Shown here in pieces: positions 32,795 to 63,338 of a DNA stretch of 64,000 nucleotides. Each line of letters begins with the position of its first letter. Position 1 is the stretch's first letter. Made by a program: the position numbers and the translations under genes. The stretch comes from Microbacterium telephonicum (GTDB lineage Bacteria; Actinomycetota; Actinomycetes; Actinomycetales; Microbacteriaceae), in assembly GCF_003651225.1 (NCBI RefSeq), contig NZ_RCDB01000001.1, positions 1 to 64,000 of the forward strand, written 5' to 3'. The notes beneath the pieces were generated by a model that made no database searches, was not told where the DNA came from, and saw only the letters and a program-made list of their open reading frames with translations.

Positions 32795-32912
32795 CGTTTC
32801 GACTCGCTGCGCTCGCTCAACGACCGGGGGGATCCCGGTCGTTGAGCGAGGAGCGCAGCGACGAGTCGAAACGCGTATGGCGATTCCTGCGTTTCGGCTC
32901 GCTCAACGGCCG
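32795..32912. repeat. head-to-head copies of repeat B plus a partial third copy
   Basis: 32795-32827 (CGTTTCGACTCG...ACGACCGG) faces its reverse complement 32835-32873 across 7 bp, a long hairpin. A third, degenerate copy (32890-32912) contains the stop codon of the hydrolase gene. The arms differ by a 6-bp insertion (GAGGAGCGCAGCGACGAG versus GAGCGCAGCGAG), the same length polymorphism as at 63.2 kb. Confidence 0.85.
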
Positions 32913-34228
32913 GGGGTGAGGGTCACGGCGGCGTAGTCGGTCGTCGTGACGGTCGTCGCGGCGCCGAGGTCGGCGAGGCGGTCGCGCACCGCGTCCATGC
33001 GCGGATCGGACGACGCATCCAGCATCCCGGCGGTCTCGGCGTAGCGGTCGAGCCCGTGGGCGCCGAGCAGCCACTCCCCCGGCGGCGCGTCGGGGGCCAG
33101 CGCGACCCGTTCGGCGACGAAGCTGCCCGGCGCACCCACGCCGCCCGCGACACCGCCGGCGGCGAGCGCCGACACCGGGTCGTCGACATGCCGCAGCGCG
33201 ACGCTGAGCGTGCCTCCCCCGACCTCGCCCTGCACGGGCGATCCGATCGTGACGAGCGTCGCCACGTCGTAGGGCGAGTCCATCGCGAGGTGCGTGGCGA
33301 CCATCGCCCCCTGCGAGTGGCCGACGAGGTGCACGCGGTCTCCCGGTGCCGCGCCGGCCAGCGCGAGCGCCTCGCGCGTCGCCGCGAGCGACGCGCTCTG
33401 CTCGTCCCGCAGGTACAGGTCGAGGTTCGAGGCGTTGTCCCACGGCTCACCCGGCTCGTCGCCCTTCGTACCGGTGACGTACGCGACGTACTGACGGGTG
33501 CCGTCCGGCATCGCGTACGTCTCCACCCTCACCCGCGCGTCGGGCGCCATCGCCATTCGGCCGACGACCTCACCGAGCGTCCCGGGGGCGACCGCCGCCG
33601 CGGCGGCCCGGGTCGGCGTGACGGAGACGGCGGGACTCGGCCCCGACAGCACGCGATCGCGCGGCACGACACCGCGCCCGGAGGCTCCGATCCCCGCGAC
33701 GATGCCGGTCGCGGCACCCGAGAGCGCGACGACGCCGTACACCGCCACCGGCGAGAACGCGGCGACGACGCCGAAGCGGGCCGCGATCATCGCGAGCCCG
33801 TCGTCGCGCCGCGCCACCCAGTCGGCCTCCTCCACCGCCGCGCGCCGGGCGAGGCCGGGATCGCCGAACGCCAGCTCGTGCGCCCGGGCCCGCAGCCGCT
33901 GCGCCGCAGCGTGATCGCCGGAGAGCAGCGCGGCGGTGGCGGCGGCATCCAGTTCGACGTACTCGTAGAGATCGGCGAGGGCGTCGAGGTCGCGCGCGAG
34001 CCGCTCGAGGTCGTCGGCGGCGGCGCCGGTCGCCTGACTCGCCGCACCGAGCGCGGCCATTGCGATCCAGCCGGATGCCGGGAGCGCGTCGGCGGCGCGG
34101 GTGAGGGCGCGTCGCGGCTCGTGCAGATCGCCCGCCAGCAGCCGCAGCCGCCCCGCCGCGCCGCGCAGTTCGCCGGTGTCGACGGCGACGACCCCGCCGC
34201 TGCGGATCTCGAGGTCGTCCGCGCTCAT
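32903..34228 (-). CDS. alpha/beta hydrolase with WXG100-like helical N-terminus
   Basis: 441 residues from ATG 34228. The first 150 residues are helical and Ala-rich (TGELRGAAGRLRLLAGDLHEP), like WXG100/DUF1023-type proteins. A hydrophobic segment lies at about 165-190. The C-terminal part is a lipase-like fold with GHSQGAMVATHLAM (nucleophile elbow GHSQG) and LVTIGSPVQG. It is coupled by an ATGA overlap to a small helical protein, the layout of secreted or ESX-linked pairs. The TGA stop lies inside a repeat B copy. The substrate is unknown. Confidence 0.75.
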   Translation of the reverse strand: MSADDLEIRSGGVVAVDTGELRGAAGRLRLLAGDLHEPRRALTRAADALPASGWIAMAALGAASQATGAAADDLERLARDLDALADLYEYVELDAAATAALLSGDHAAAQRLRARAHELAFGDPGLARRAAVEEADWVARRDDGLAMIAARFGVVAAFSPVAVYGVVALSGAATGIVAGIGASGRGVVPRDRVLSGPSPAVSVTPTRAAAAAVAPGTLGEVVGRMAMAPDARVRVETYAMPDGTRQYVAYVTGTKGDEPGEPWDNASNLDLYLRDEQSASLAATREALALAGAAPGDRVHLVGHSQGAMVATHLAMDSPYDVATLVTIGSPVQGEVGGGTLSVALRHVDDPVSALAAGGVAGGVGAPGSFVAERVALAPDAPPGEWLLGAHGLDRYAETAGMLDASSDPRMDAVRDRLADLGAATTVTTTDYAAVTLTPGR

Positions 34229-53016: not shown

Positions 53017-53945
53017 GCGACCCGGCCGGCGGTCTGGGCCACCAGCGCGTCGAGCACCGTCTGCAGGGCGGGTGAGTCGTTCTGGCTGCGACGGTGCACG
53101 GCGGCGATGTCGCGGGTGGAGGCCGGCTGCGCGGTGGGGACGGCGACGAGCCCGTCGGGAAGTGGGGGGCGCCCCATCCGCGGCACGAGCGCGATGCCGA
53201 GACCGGCCTGCACGAGGTGCACGTGGTTTTCGAACTCCATAGATTCGTGCACGATGCGCGGGGCGTTCGCGACGCCGTCGAACAGGCGCCGCAGCCACTG
53301 GCGGCAGATCGTGGAGTCGAAGGTCGCGATCCACTCCTCGTCGGCGAGATCGGTAGGGGTGAGTTCGGCGTGCGTGGCGAGCGGGTGGTGCGCGGGCAGG
53401 ATCACGTCGGCCACGTCGGTGAACAGCGGCGTCGCGACGAGATGCTCGGGCATCGCGAGCGCCACCCCGCCCCACCGGTGCACGATGCCGAGGTCGCGTT
53501 GGCCGGAGGCGACGAGGGCGACGGTCTCCCACGGCTCGCTCTCGCGCAGCGGCACGCGCAGCGCGGGATGCTCGGCACGCAGACGCGGCAGCACGTCGGT
53601 CAGGATGCCGCGCACCGCGGTCGAGAACGCACCGATGCGCACTTCGCCGGTCACCGGGCGGGCGGGGGCCTCTGCGCGCGGTCCGCCGGCGAGATGGAGG
53701 TCGGCTTCGAGACGTTCGAGGTCGGCCAGCACCGTCGCCGACGAGGTGACGAGGTGACGTCCCGCGTCGGTGAGCACGACGCCGCGGCCGGCGCGCTCGA
53801 GCAGGGCGACGCGGGTGCCGCGTTCGAGGCGCTTGATCTGCTGCGAGACGGCCGACGGCGTGAATCCGAGGGCGTCGGCGGCGGCCGCGACGCTCCCGCC
53901 GGTGGCCACGGCGCGCAGTGCGACGACGGCTTCCAGATCGATCAT
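53013..53945 (-). CDS. LysR-family regulator
   Basis: 310 residues. The N-terminal winged HTH ([43 protein letters not shown], residues about 8-60) is followed by a periplasmic-binding-like effector domain ([16 protein letters not shown] and [10 protein letters not shown]). It diverges from the DMT transporter with 72 bp between, the usual layout for LysR control of an exporter, and is coupled to the small ORF and msrA downstream. Confidence 0.9.
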
Positions 53946-54017
53946 GTACGGATGCTACCGAATCGAGCGAAGGAATGGTCGCTGGTGTTTCCGCATCCGA
54001 GGCGCTTCGCTGGACCC

Positions 54018-55010
54018 ATGACGGGACCCATGACACGACGCGACATGCTGCTGGCCGCCCTCGTGGCGACGATGTGGGGCTTCAACTTCGTCGTGATCGA
54101 CTGGGGGATGGCCGGCATCCCGCCGCTGTTCTTCGTCGCGGTGCGCTTCCTCGTCGTCGCCCTCGCCGTATTCGTCGTACCGCGCCCGCTGGCGTCGTGG
54201 AAGACGGTCGTCGGCGTCGGACTGTTCATGAGCCTCGGCCAATTCGCCCTGCTCTACACCTCGATCGCCCTGGGACTTCAGCCGGGGATCGCCGCGCTCC
54301 TCCTGCAGGCGCAGGTGGTGCTGACGATCGTGGTCGCCGCGCTCGCGCTGCGGGAGCGCCCGACCGCCCGGCAGGCCGTCGGCGTGCTGGTGGGCACCGT
54401 CGGCCTGGGTGTCGTCGCGCTCGGTCGCGGCGGCGACGCACCGGCGGTCGCGGTCGTGCTGTGCCTGCTCGCGGCGCTGTCGTGGGCGATCGGCAATGTG
54501 ATCTCGCGGCGCGCCGGCGCCGTCGCCCCGCCCAAGCGCCTCGGCGCGCTGTCGCTCACGGTGTGGTCCTCGCTGGTCGTACCGCTCCCGGCGCTCGCCC
54601 TGTCGGCGGCGATCGAGGGGCCCGAGGCGATCGCGGCGGGGATCGCGGCGTTCGGGTGGCGACCGATCCTGTCGACGCTGTACACCGCGGGGCTGTGCAC
54701 GCTCGTCGGCTACGCGATCTTCAACGCCCTGCTCGCCCGCAACCGCTCGGCATCCGTCGTCCCGTGGGTGCTGCTGGCACCCGTCGTCGCGATGGCCTCG
54801 GCCGCGGCGCTGCTCGGCCAGATTCCCAACGTGTGGGAAACCGTGGGCGGCGCCGTGCTGGTCGTCGGCGTGTTCGTCGCGAACGCGCCGACGCGGCGGC
54901 GCGTTGGCGGTGGGGGCGGGCGAGGGCAGGTGGTCGCGGCCGGCGCGGAGGTGCCCGCGCACGTCACACGAACGGCCGCCCCCGCGGATGCCGACCGGCA
55001 CAACGCGTGA
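54018..55010 (+). CDS. EamA/DMT-family exporter
   Basis: 330 residues from ATG 54018 (ATG 54030 four codons later is an alternative). Ten helices in two EamA repeats: MWGFNFVVIDWGMAG, LGLQPGIAALLLQAQVVLTIVVAALALRERP, and SASVVPWVLLAPVVAMASAAALLGQ. It resembles the RhtA/YdeD O-acetylserine/cysteine exporters. The last 15 residues (THVT-like VTRTAAPADADRHNA) are encoded by the first copy of a 64-bp repeat, including the stop codon. Divergent LysR probably regulates it. Confidence 0.87.
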   Translation: MTGPMTRRDMLLAALVATMWGFNFVVIDWGMAGIPPLFFVAVRFLVVALAVFVVPRPLASWKTVVGVGLFMSLGQFALLYTSIALGLQPGIAALLLQAQVVLTIVVAALALRERPTARQAVGVLVGTVGLGVVALGRGGDAPAVAVVLCLLAALSWAIGNVISRRAGAVAPPKRLGALSLTVWSSLVVPLPALALSAAIEGPEAIAAGIAAFGWRPILSTLYTAGLCTLVGYAIFNALLARNRSASVVPWVLLAPVVAMASAAALLGQIPNVWETVGGAVLVVGVFVANAPTRRRVGGGGGRGQVVAAGAEVPAHVTRTAAPADADRHNA

Positions 55011-55140
55011 CACGCTCCGCATCCGTGTCACACGAACGGCCGCGCCCACGGATGCCGAGCCGCAGAACGCGTGACACGACCGGCATCCGTGTCACACGAA
55101 CGGCCGCCCGGGCCGTCCCGCACGGGCGCTTCGCGTGACA
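54963..55140. repeat. three 64-bp-period palindromic units
   Basis: Cores 54963-55013, 55025-55077 and 55089-55140 begin GTGTCACACGAACGGCCGC and end CGCGTGACAC (inverted ends GTGTCAC/GTGACAC). The period is exactly 64 bp. The centre of copy 3 differs completely (CCGGGCCGTCCCGCACGGGCG) while its ends are kept. Copy 1 codes for the transporter's C-terminus and stop. Confidence 0.85.
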
Positions 55141-55176
55141 TGCCCTGGGGCGGAGCGTGCCTCCCCGTCGCGCCGA

Positions 55177-55518
55177 TCAGGCGGTGGGCACGCTGAGGAG
55201 GGTCCAGAGCAGCGCGATCATGCCGAACACGACGCCCGCGTAGAGGATTGCGACGCAATCCAGGATGACGCCGACGAGGATCGACCATCCCGGCGCGCGG
55301 CGGGCACGGTGCGCGCGCCACGCCACGACCAGCCCGACGACGCCCAGGACGACGCTCGACGCGCAGAGCAGGGTGATCGTCTCGAGCACGTTCGACGGTG
55401 CGATCCGCCAGACGAGCGCGGTCGGTGCGACGAGGCCGACGGCGGCCGCCCCGAGACCGATCACGGCGATCGCCGCCGGGGTCGCCGACCGGCGACGGTT
55501 CGAGGGTGCGAGGGTCAT
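55177..55518 (-). CDS. small DUF4190-like membrane protein
   Basis: 113 residues from ATG 55518. Three to four hydrophobic helices: IAVIGLGAAAVGLVAPTALVW, ITLLCASSVVLGVVGLVVAW and GWSILVGVILDCVAILYAGVVFGMIALLW. The pattern resembles DUF4190 small membrane proteins without its usual N-terminal Pro-rich part. Function unknown. It lies between two repeat elements. Confidence 0.65.
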   Translation of the reverse strand: MTLAPSNRRRSATPAAIAVIGLGAAAVGLVAPTALVWRIAPSNVLETITLLCASSVVLGVVGLVVAWRAHRARRAPGWSILVGVILDCVAILYAGVVFGMIALLWTLLSVPTA

Positions 55519-55585
55519 GCGGGCACGGTAGCGCCCGCCCCGCCCCCGGCACTCCGCCCCTCCACAGCCCCCACCCCTCCTGCCG

Positions 55586-55644
55586 TCGAGATGACGCGAA
55601 CGGTCCCGGATCCGCGCGATCGCGTGCGATTCGTGTGATCTCGA
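55586..55644. repeat. 59-bp imperfect palindromic element
   Basis: TCGAGATGACGCGAA (55586-55600) faces TTCGTGTGATCTCGA (55630-55644), a 15-bp stem with two mismatches. The centre GTCCCGGATCCGCG has its own symmetry. The CGAACGG core resembles the 64-bp units 450 bp away. Confidence 0.65.
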
Positions 55645-55692
55645 TCGCCGCCGACCCTGGTCGGTGTCCCCCGGGGTGTTTAGGGTGGCGGC

Positions 55693-56628
55693 ATGGACGG
55701 CATCGCAGCGACGACGGACACGATCGAGTGGCTGCTGGCAGGAGACCCGGCCGTGCGGTGGCAGGTGCTGCGCGACCTCACCGACGCCACTGACGAGCAG
55801 GTCGCCACGGAACGGGCGAAGGTCGCACACGAGGGATGGGGCGCCGCCGTGCTCGCGGCCCAGGACGACGACGGCCTGTGGCGCGCGCCCGACGAACCCG
55901 ACTGGGTGCCGAACCTCTACACGATGATGCTGCTGCGGGAGTTCGGTGTCGATCCGGCCGATCCGGCGGTCTCCCGCCGGATCGATGCGTTCGAGCGCGC
56001 CTACCGGTGGGACGAGGAGTTCGGCGCCGGCCCTTTCTTCGCAGGCGAGGTCGAACCGTGCATCAACGGGCGGGTGCTCGCGCTCGGCGCGTACTTCAAC
56101 CGGGCGGATGCCGCCATGGCTGCGCGTCTGACGGGTGACGAACTCGCCGACGGCGGCTGGAATTGCGAGGCACCGGCATCCGCCGTCAGCTCGTTCCACT
56201 CCACGATCTGCGTCTTGGAGGGACTGCGCGAGTACGAAGCGGCCGTCGGCGCAACGGAGGCGACGACGACGGCGCGGCGTCGCGGCGAGGAGTACCTGCT
56301 CGAGCGTCACCTGCACCGGCGCCGATCGACCGGCGAGACGGCGGCGCCCGGGTTCCTCGACTTCACCTTCCCACCGTCGTGGTACTTCGACGTGCTGTTC
56401 GGGCTCGACCACTTCTGGGCGGCGGACATCCGCGATCCGCGCCTCGCCGAGGCCGTCGACATCGTGCGGTCGAAGGCGCAGCCCGATGGCCGATGGCTGC
56501 TCGACGGCGACAGCGAGTACGTCGTCGAGTATCCGGGCCGCGAGCAGGTCGGCGAGCCCAGCCGGTGGAACACGCTGCGCGCGCTGCGAGTACTGCGCTG
56601 GTGGGATGCGGCACCCGGGCAGGCCTGA
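55693..56628 (+). CDS. squalene-cyclase-like alpha/alpha-toroid protein
   Basis: 311 residues of helical repeats: AGDPAVRWQVLRDL, GWGAAVLAAQDDDGLWRAPDE, LADGGWNCEAP, and SKAQPDGRWLLDGDSEYVVEYPG. The QDxDGxW-like units are the QW motifs of the terpenoid cyclase toroid, but the cyclase DxDD acid is absent. In soil actinobacteria such proteins are annotated squalene cyclase-like or prenyltransferase-like without known activity. The start follows TAGGGTGGCGGC, a possible leaderless -10. Confidence 0.75.
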   Translation: MDGIAATTDTIEWLLAGDPAVRWQVLRDLTDATDEQVATERAKVAHEGWGAAVLAAQDDDGLWRAPDEPDWVPNLYTMMLLREFGVDPADPAVSRRIDAFERAYRWDEEFGAGPFFAGEVEPCINGRVLALGAYFNRADAAMAARLTGDELADGGWNCEAPASAVSSFHSTICVLEGLREYEAAVGATEATTTARRRGEEYLLERHLHRRRSTGETAAPGFLDFTFPPSWYFDVLFGLDHFWAADIRDPRLAEAVDIVRSKAQPDGRWLLDGDSEYVVEYPGREQVGEPSRWNTLRALRVLRWWDAAPGQA

Positions 56629-56662
56629 CGCCGGCCGGCACGCGAGCAATCACCGCGCGCGG

Positions 56663-56998
56663 TTACAGGCTGCCGCCGAGCAGCGGCCCGGCCGACTCCG
56701 AGCGGCGCTCGTCTCCCCCGCGATCGCGGTACGGCGCCGCGACGTCGCCCTCCTGCGGGATGCGCTCGGCAAGCGGCACCGGATCGGCCTCTTCGCGGAG
56801 CTTCTCGGTGACGCTGTGCTCGACGACGACGGGGATGTAGTCGCGCACGTGGGCGTCGTCGAGGGTGTGGACCTCGTCGTGGACGACCTGCTCGACGTGG
56901 TCATGGTCGAGGGTCGGGAACTTGGTGGCGATCCGGTCGATGACCGCGTCGATGGCGAGCTCTTCCTGCCGGGTGTCGGCGTGCTGGGTGTTCTCCAT
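56663..56998 (-). CDS. three-helix-bundle dimerisation-domain protein
   Basis: 111 residues. AIDAVIDRIATKFPTLDHDHVEQVVHDEVHTLDDAHVRDYIPVVVEHSVTEKLRE in overlapping parts gives three amphipathic helices with regular hydrophobic heptads. The actinobacterial family carries this name from its predicted fold. The polar tail is likely disordered. Role unknown. Confidence 0.72.
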   Translation of the reverse strand: MENTQHADTRQEELAIDAVIDRIATKFPTLDHDHVEQVVHDEVHTLDDAHVRDYIPVVVEHSVTEKLREEADPVPLAERIPQEGDVAAPYRDRGGDERRSESAGPLLGGSL

Positions 56999-63195: not shown

Positions 63196-63338
63196 CGTTT
63201 CGACTCGTCGCTCCGCTCCTCGCTCAACGACCGGGATGGGGGCACACGCCCACTCCGGTCGTTGAGCGAGCAGAGCGAGTCGACCGGGATGGGGGCACAC
63301 CTCTTCCGGTCGTTGAGCGAGCGGAGCGAGTCGAAACG
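63196..63338. repeat. three copies of repeat B with a 53-bp duplication
   Basis: Copy 63196-63234 (CGTTTCGACTCG...ACGACCGG) faces two reversed copies, 63255-63283 (short, lacking the AACG end) and 63306-63338. GACCGGGATGGGGGCACAC occurs at 63229-63247 and again at 63282-63300, a 53-bp period, showing local duplication of one arm. It fills the gap between the GNAT and the CBS/CorC genes. Confidence 0.85.

Follow-up and report, generated by a model that had tools for sequence, protein, structure and literature searches.

The EamA-family exporter gene (PF00892) at positions 54018–55010 on the forward strand of a 64,000-nucleotide stretch of Microbacterium telephonicum DNA (the window) runs at its C-terminal end into three tandem palindromic units, raising the question as to whether these are a local oddity, a REP array, or a set of sites at which a protein binds. 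An earlier note on this DNA had described three 64-bp palindromic units of exact period, and the description is accurate: copies begin at 54963, 55027 and 55091, with identities to the first of 100%, 88% and 69%. Each unit is composed of a 51-nt inverted repeat, reaching from an outer T to an outer A, and a 13-nt linker, such that the forward-strand palindromes occupy 54962–55012, 55026–55076 and 55090–55140 and are separated by linkers of fixed length at 55013–55025 and 55077–55089. The third is the top-scoring copy of the window (51.4 bits). The inverted GTGTCAC ends that were said to be present in all three are indeed kept, but not letter for letter, since the first left end is CACGTCAC and the last right end is GTGACAT; likewise, the center of the third copy has been replaced, but this is no peculiarity of that copy, as centers vary throughout the whole family described below. 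A predicted gene on the reverse strand (55177–55518), which has no match in Pfam or NCBIfam, makes the array site a convergent intergenic one. A candidate fourth palindrome, single, 51 nt long and of another spelling (GATGACGCGAACGG on the forward strand, GATCACACGAATCG on the reverse), lies at 55590–55640 on the forward strand, 450 nt behind the array, where a profile match extends from 55594 to 55638 (E = 8e-4 for the window). Palindromes of the same spacing with yet another outer arm are seen in genomes G015 and G056.

The final 15 residues of the exporter (VTRTAAPADADRHNA) and its stop codon come from the first repeat unit, the right arm of palindrome 1 giving the TGA, which bears out the earlier reading of this C-terminus. 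Comparison with seven exporter homologues from relatives within the genus (71.6–76.2% identity over the matched part) turned up none with the same C-terminus and no repeat: the tail that follows the last conserved stretch is 35 residues long here and 9–24 residues long and unrelated in all seven, so that the homologue tails are 11–26 residues shorter, and neither a generic palindrome nor a profile match is present in the 4.7–4.8 kb around any of the seven loci. A second gene of the host (locus L058) also terminates inside its own array.

A genome-wide family of fixed dimensions

The host genome (G000; 3.12 Mb in 6 contigs) contains 86 exact matches to the half-site TGTCACRCGAA, compared to one for the reversed control pattern, and by manual count these form 33 clusters, one of which is a lone half-site; no pair of them was noticed to enclose a gene in the way that terminal repeats enclose a cognate transposase. 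When two arms are sought together (GTCACACGAACG N{25,38} CGTGACA) there are 18 matches, with an identical gap in all of them, and none for the control; these two contrasts exclude chance or a local oddity. A profile search adds two further loci (C2:394139/394203 and C2:645803), although it scored 150 of 12,020 candidates and the count is therefore a lower bound. In total about 34 matching arrays, that of the window being one, are scattered over the host genome. Looking for the repeat elsewhere, as had been proposed, thus reveals a genome-wide family in the host and, as shown below, dialects in other species of the genus.

The dimensions of these arrays are nearly constant. Among 91 palindromes called in the array regions of the host, 88 are 51 nt long and three are 50 nt; they are organized into 44 runs, comprising 33 doublets, seven triplets and four singles, with a spacing between neighbors of 64 nt in 44 of 47 cases and 63 nt in the other three, and with a 13-nt linker in 46 of the 47 neighbor pairs. 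As a separate observation, GGATGC or GCATCC is found within the middle 25 nt of 25 of 88 host palindromes, compared to 5% of window 25-mers, although the motif is already over-represented in the window; GGATG or CATCC is found in 13 of the 47 host linkers, compared to 4% of window 13-mers.

Conserved arms and variable centers

The conserved half-site is CRTGTCACRCGAANKGYCG. Between arrays the arms are 73.7% identical, whereas the 17-nt centers show 35.3% identity compared to 31.1% for shuffled centers; with centers near random and the 51-nt length exact, the length of the center is kept while its sequence hardly is. Units within the same array can be much more alike, and in 19 near-duplicate pairs, which were selected for similar centers, we count 39 differences in the 22-nt outer core, 58 in the 14 nt of the inner arms and 56 in the 17-nt center. 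Because the inner arms change at least as much as the center in these pairs, a clear constraint is seen there only on the outer core.

If the palindromes were maintained as hairpins, the two arms of each should pair better than arms drawn at random. They pair worse. Within palindromes 75.6% of cells pair, compared to 77.5% after shuffling, and 499 of 500 shuffles equal or exceed the observed value; permutation of whole arms gives 1224 +/- 13 Watson-Crick pairs where 1173 are observed. The arms of one palindrome differ more than expected at positions 0, 11, 12–13 and 19, and given this excess any complex formed upon them may not be simply symmetric. Arm pairing is likewise not above that of permuted arms in genomes G134, G138, G179 and G203, and we find no excess of compensatory changes or co-variation between arms over shuffles in the host. 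The low pairing indicates that the arms behave as independent half-sites on duplex DNA rather than as a selected hairpin, and, as far as sequence can tell, the pattern speaks for half-sites held at a fixed helical phase. The earlier suggestions that the ends matter and that the units may bind a protein gain indirect support from the conserved arms, exact spacing, near-random centers and lack of excess co-variation.

Position of the arrays relative to genes

The arrays lie just behind genes. Of 32 host arrays, 21 lie between convergent genes, 11 between co-directional genes and none between divergent genes, compared to 42 convergent, 111 co-directional and 32 divergent pairs among adjacent genes of the same host sequence. 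A similar pattern is seen in other species, where 21 groups (sampled at 20 loci of nine genomes, among the generic-pattern matches listed) include seven convergent, 13 co-directional and no divergent sites, with one called inside a weak ORF. Where the flanking genes are co-directional, the array is nearer to the 3′ end of the upstream gene in 21 of 24 cases by manual count (8 of 11 in the host and 13 of 13 in the others; p about 1e-4 by a sign test), although p-values for gene context are approximate, as genes were called with a home-made codon-based finder and the baseline comprises the window and the array regions. Ten of the listed flanking genes were scanned, the exporter among them and nine from the 20 others, and all ten belong to ordinary Pfam families, including a class I tRNA synthetase and a cytochrome c assembly protein.

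Related palindromes in other Microbacterium genomes

The exact two-arm spelling is present in only one of 366 genomes of the genus, and a search of genome_contigs, which possibly does not include the host's own genome, returned no records. However, a profile built from nothing but the sequences of 88 palindromes has matches at E <= 0.01 (the E-values are rough) in 75 of 149 genus genomes, the host included, and the view that the family is unique to one species was dropped on this result; it holds for the exact spelling only. Several dialects are written on one frame, namely TGTCCCACAAATGG, TGTCACAGAAGTGG, TGTCGCAGAAACGG and TGTCACACGACGAG, together with a shorter TGTCGCGAANGGCCG type. Carriers identified with a narrower pattern include Microbacterium flavum DSM 18909, Microbacterium sp. 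70-16, Microbacterium sp. SYP-A9085 and M. luticocti DSM 19459.

When the gap is allowed to range over 17–29, a generic pattern matches in 61 of the 366 genomes by an eye tally, with a single match in 31 and two or more in 30; because the reversed control has one match in 24 of the 366 genomes, and never more, the single-match genomes are little above background. High copy number is sporadic, with eight or more copies in nine of the 366 genomes: G000, the host, has 59, G203 has 57 and G179 has 51, followed by G268 (28), G264 (24), G270 (21), G138 (11), G236 (9) and G134 (8). Among the matches listed, palindromes in genomes with at least two copies are 50 or 51 nt long, with the exception of one of 47 nt (G028), and other lengths occur in six single-match genomes (G068, G156, G159, G118, G055 and G009). 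A few copies are near-perfect palindromes, for example in G018 and G048. Doublets are 64 nt apart in G179, G134, G078 and G033. A spacing of 63 nt is seen in G203 and G146, where the palindromes are 50 nt long, and also in G099 and in one case in G078, where they are 51 nt long; exceptions are one G134 pair 75 nt apart and some wider spacings in G203. A different layout is found at loci L276–L281 (G138), L287–L288 (G236) and L236, in which an additional half-site in direct orientation (TGTCCCACTT..) lies 21 nt beyond the 51-nt palindrome. A search with GATGACRCGAANNG gives about one match per genome in 265 of the 366, which we read as coding background.

Inverted pairs were also sought de novo in a 400-kb segment of G099, by a method that is weak at low copy number, and nothing convincing was found, the known G099 copies lying outside that segment. 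The site orthologous to the L059 array (G099:C1 at about 1.0366 Mb, locus L169) is a convergent gap with three ACGGATGGC motifs, two of them as an inverted pair, there being six such motifs in all of the 400 kb; this gap is possibly a decayed or other-dialect array. A phage or plasmid origin was rejected, there being no match to the exact pattern in viral contigs, nor any in plasmids or phages. Literature searches on these sequences, on Microbacterium and on related repeats found no description of the array family among the papers listed.

A proposed protein-binding array

We favor the interpretation, to which we assign a probability of roughly 0.55, that the units constitute an array of duplex-DNA sites for a putative sequence-specific Microbacterium protein, positioned at the 3′ ends of genes; from the DNA we infer such a protein together with its stoichiometry and function. 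Each half-site of about 17–19 nt would take one protomer. Successive half-sites point in opposite directions, with 51 nt across each palindrome and 13 nt between palindromes, which would put their centers about 34 and about 30 nt apart. Since these distances are close to three helical turns, as that of the 21-nt variant is to two, all of the sites would lie on one face of the helix. A palindrome doublet could therefore hold four protomers along a single face, the simplest reading being that a DNA-binding protein assembles cooperatively at the 3′ ends of genes. The resulting complex would most likely mark the end of the gene or insulate it from read-through, from colliding transcription, or from supercoiling where two genes converge.

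That the same frame recurs in the genus under other spellings suggests a putative DNA-binding protein that aligns on the arrays, and on the best reading this protein would be fast-changing. More tentatively, we propose a genus-specific nucleoprotein system in which a fast-evolving protein, each protomer of which probably has two modules that read DNA, occupies four helically phased half-sites, and in which protein and sites change together to give species dialects on a nearly constant 51/13 frame. Dispersed bacterial palindromes are often explained as REP or REPIN hairpins moved by RAYT transposases. The present family combines rigid spacing with arms on which pairing places no constraint, and the host genome yielded no RAYT; it would provide a natural series in which to study the joint change of a DNA-binding protein and its tens of sites, and the 115-nt doublet offers a concrete bait for finding the putative protein. 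There are nonetheless observations that weigh against a binding array. The sporadic occurrence of high copy number fits selfish spread too, some arrays have been enlarged by local duplication, and binding alone leaves the genome-wide dispersal unexplained. The dispersal may also have a mobile origin, which would be compatible with a binding array.

Alternative explanations

It is doubtful that the units are REPIN- or MITE-like non-autonomous mobile elements and nothing more, the arms serving as ends recognized by a transposase and the copies spreading through intergenic DNA, but the resemblances are considerable. REPINs (PMC3116915) are REP doublets forming a hairpin, for which compensatory changes and RAYT association are reported, and they have in common with our arrays the inverted conserved ends, the variable spacer of conserved length (here, near-random centers in palindromes of which 88 of 91 measure 51 nt), the extragenic location, the tandem clusters and the genome-specific sequence groups. 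The arrays differ from what is described there in being built of 64-nt doublets with a 13-nt linker and arms that are not palindromic, with no RAYT found, no GTAG and no excess compensation. REPs tagged by GTAG or CGTC (PMC3733652) are short palindromic sequences mostly downstream of genes, between convergent or co-directional ORFs, a position that the arrays reproduce (0 of 32 host arrays and 0 of 21 other groups being divergent); relative to that account, the arrays have a 51-nt unit with independently varying arms, GTAG at the foot of none of 176 arms and CGTC in the outer 8 nt of only six of the 176. The sporadically high copy number, the species dialects and the faint similarity remaining between centers also agree with mobility.

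Several results speak against this reading. The host genome has no match to Y1_Tnp (PF01797) at E <= 0.001, a search that was positive in 5 of 14 control genomes, and a RAYT-driven REP is rejected for the host genome on this result. The 21-nt arms show the folding expected of shuffled letters (mean -1.54 compared to -1.55, with six of 176 at -4 or lower), and the flanks of the 44 runs show no excess identity indicative of target-site duplication at offsets 0–3 for sizes 2–6, 8 and 9 (largest z 1.9). Recent copies should, moreover, have common centers, while those of different arrays are near random, and a purely mobile reading leaves such centers of exact length unexplained. The REP array raised as an option in the earlier note consequently fails here, there being neither Y1_Tnp/RAYT nor GTAG foot, self-folding arms or excess compensatory change in the host. 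The BIMEs of E. coli are mosaics of alternating palindromic units with regular spacing at gene 3′ ends that bind host proteins, namely DNA gyrase, IHF or Pol I. The arrays are BIME-like in their alternating direction, regular spacing and location, but differ in sequence, in that no Y1_Tnp was found, and in having half-sites that are not hairpins. The family is one that works as a dispersed intergenic palindrome family, and we do not file it as REP/REPIN.

RNA hairpins at transcript 3′ ends, acting as bidirectional terminators or mRNA stabilizers, are an unlikely explanation. Inverted arms behind genes and between convergent genes are what such hairpins would look like, and there are the few near-perfect palindromes noted above in other genomes; in the window, copy 3 folds better than its shuffles (z -2.89, DNA parameters), but copies 1 and 2 do not stand out in this way (z 0.49 and -1.46). 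Arm pairing falls below that of shuffled arms and the changes are uncompensated beyond chance. No terminator-like site, sought as a GC-rich stem followed by a T run, is present in positions 53900–55760 of the window, a scan of this array only, and Rfam has no match to window positions 54000–56700 or to loci L059, L271, L274, L276 and L285. A hairpin would also need no exact lengths of 51 and 13 nt. A hairpin or other RNA element is thus disfavored by the pairing statistics, Rfam and the terminator scan.

The MIRUs of Mycobacterium tuberculosis are actinobacterial tandem units of 50–100 nt found at tens of intergenic loci. It is very improbable that our arrays are a neutral interspersed tandem repeat of this kind, copied by slippage and with arms similar by recent descent only: the runs of two to three 64-nt tandem units and the adjacent near duplicates with inner arms as variable as the center fit such an origin, but arms and lengths are kept between arrays despite near-random centers, the outer core changes least even among near duplicates, and the geometry is constant across species of different spelling. 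Tandem scattered units are common to both, and the arrays differ from MIRUs in their inverted conserved ends, unconserved interior and genus dialects.

Other repeats

Several further repeats were encountered. A locus in a Clostridia MAG (L237:6533–6602) contains nested TGTCRCACAA half-sites, but lies in AT-rich DNA with GGGACAG-type repeats and was not counted as a family member; it may be an unrelated repeat having the 10-mer in common. Locus L214 (G361:C5:35093, 35314 and 35533) has a related palindrome within three tandem copies that are spaced by about 220 nt, and GATGACGCGAACGG is found within a tandem repeat of 109 nt at L140 (G100:C11, about 11.4 kb). The window also contains inverted pairs of a second dispersed repeat, CTCGCTCAACGACCGGG / CCCGGTCGTTGAGCGAG, at 32812–32850, 32898–32914, 63216–63273 and about 1115–1133, and 10-mers related to it (CTCGCTCAAC, GGGTCGTTGA and AGACGAAACG) are over-represented in the 400 kb of G099.
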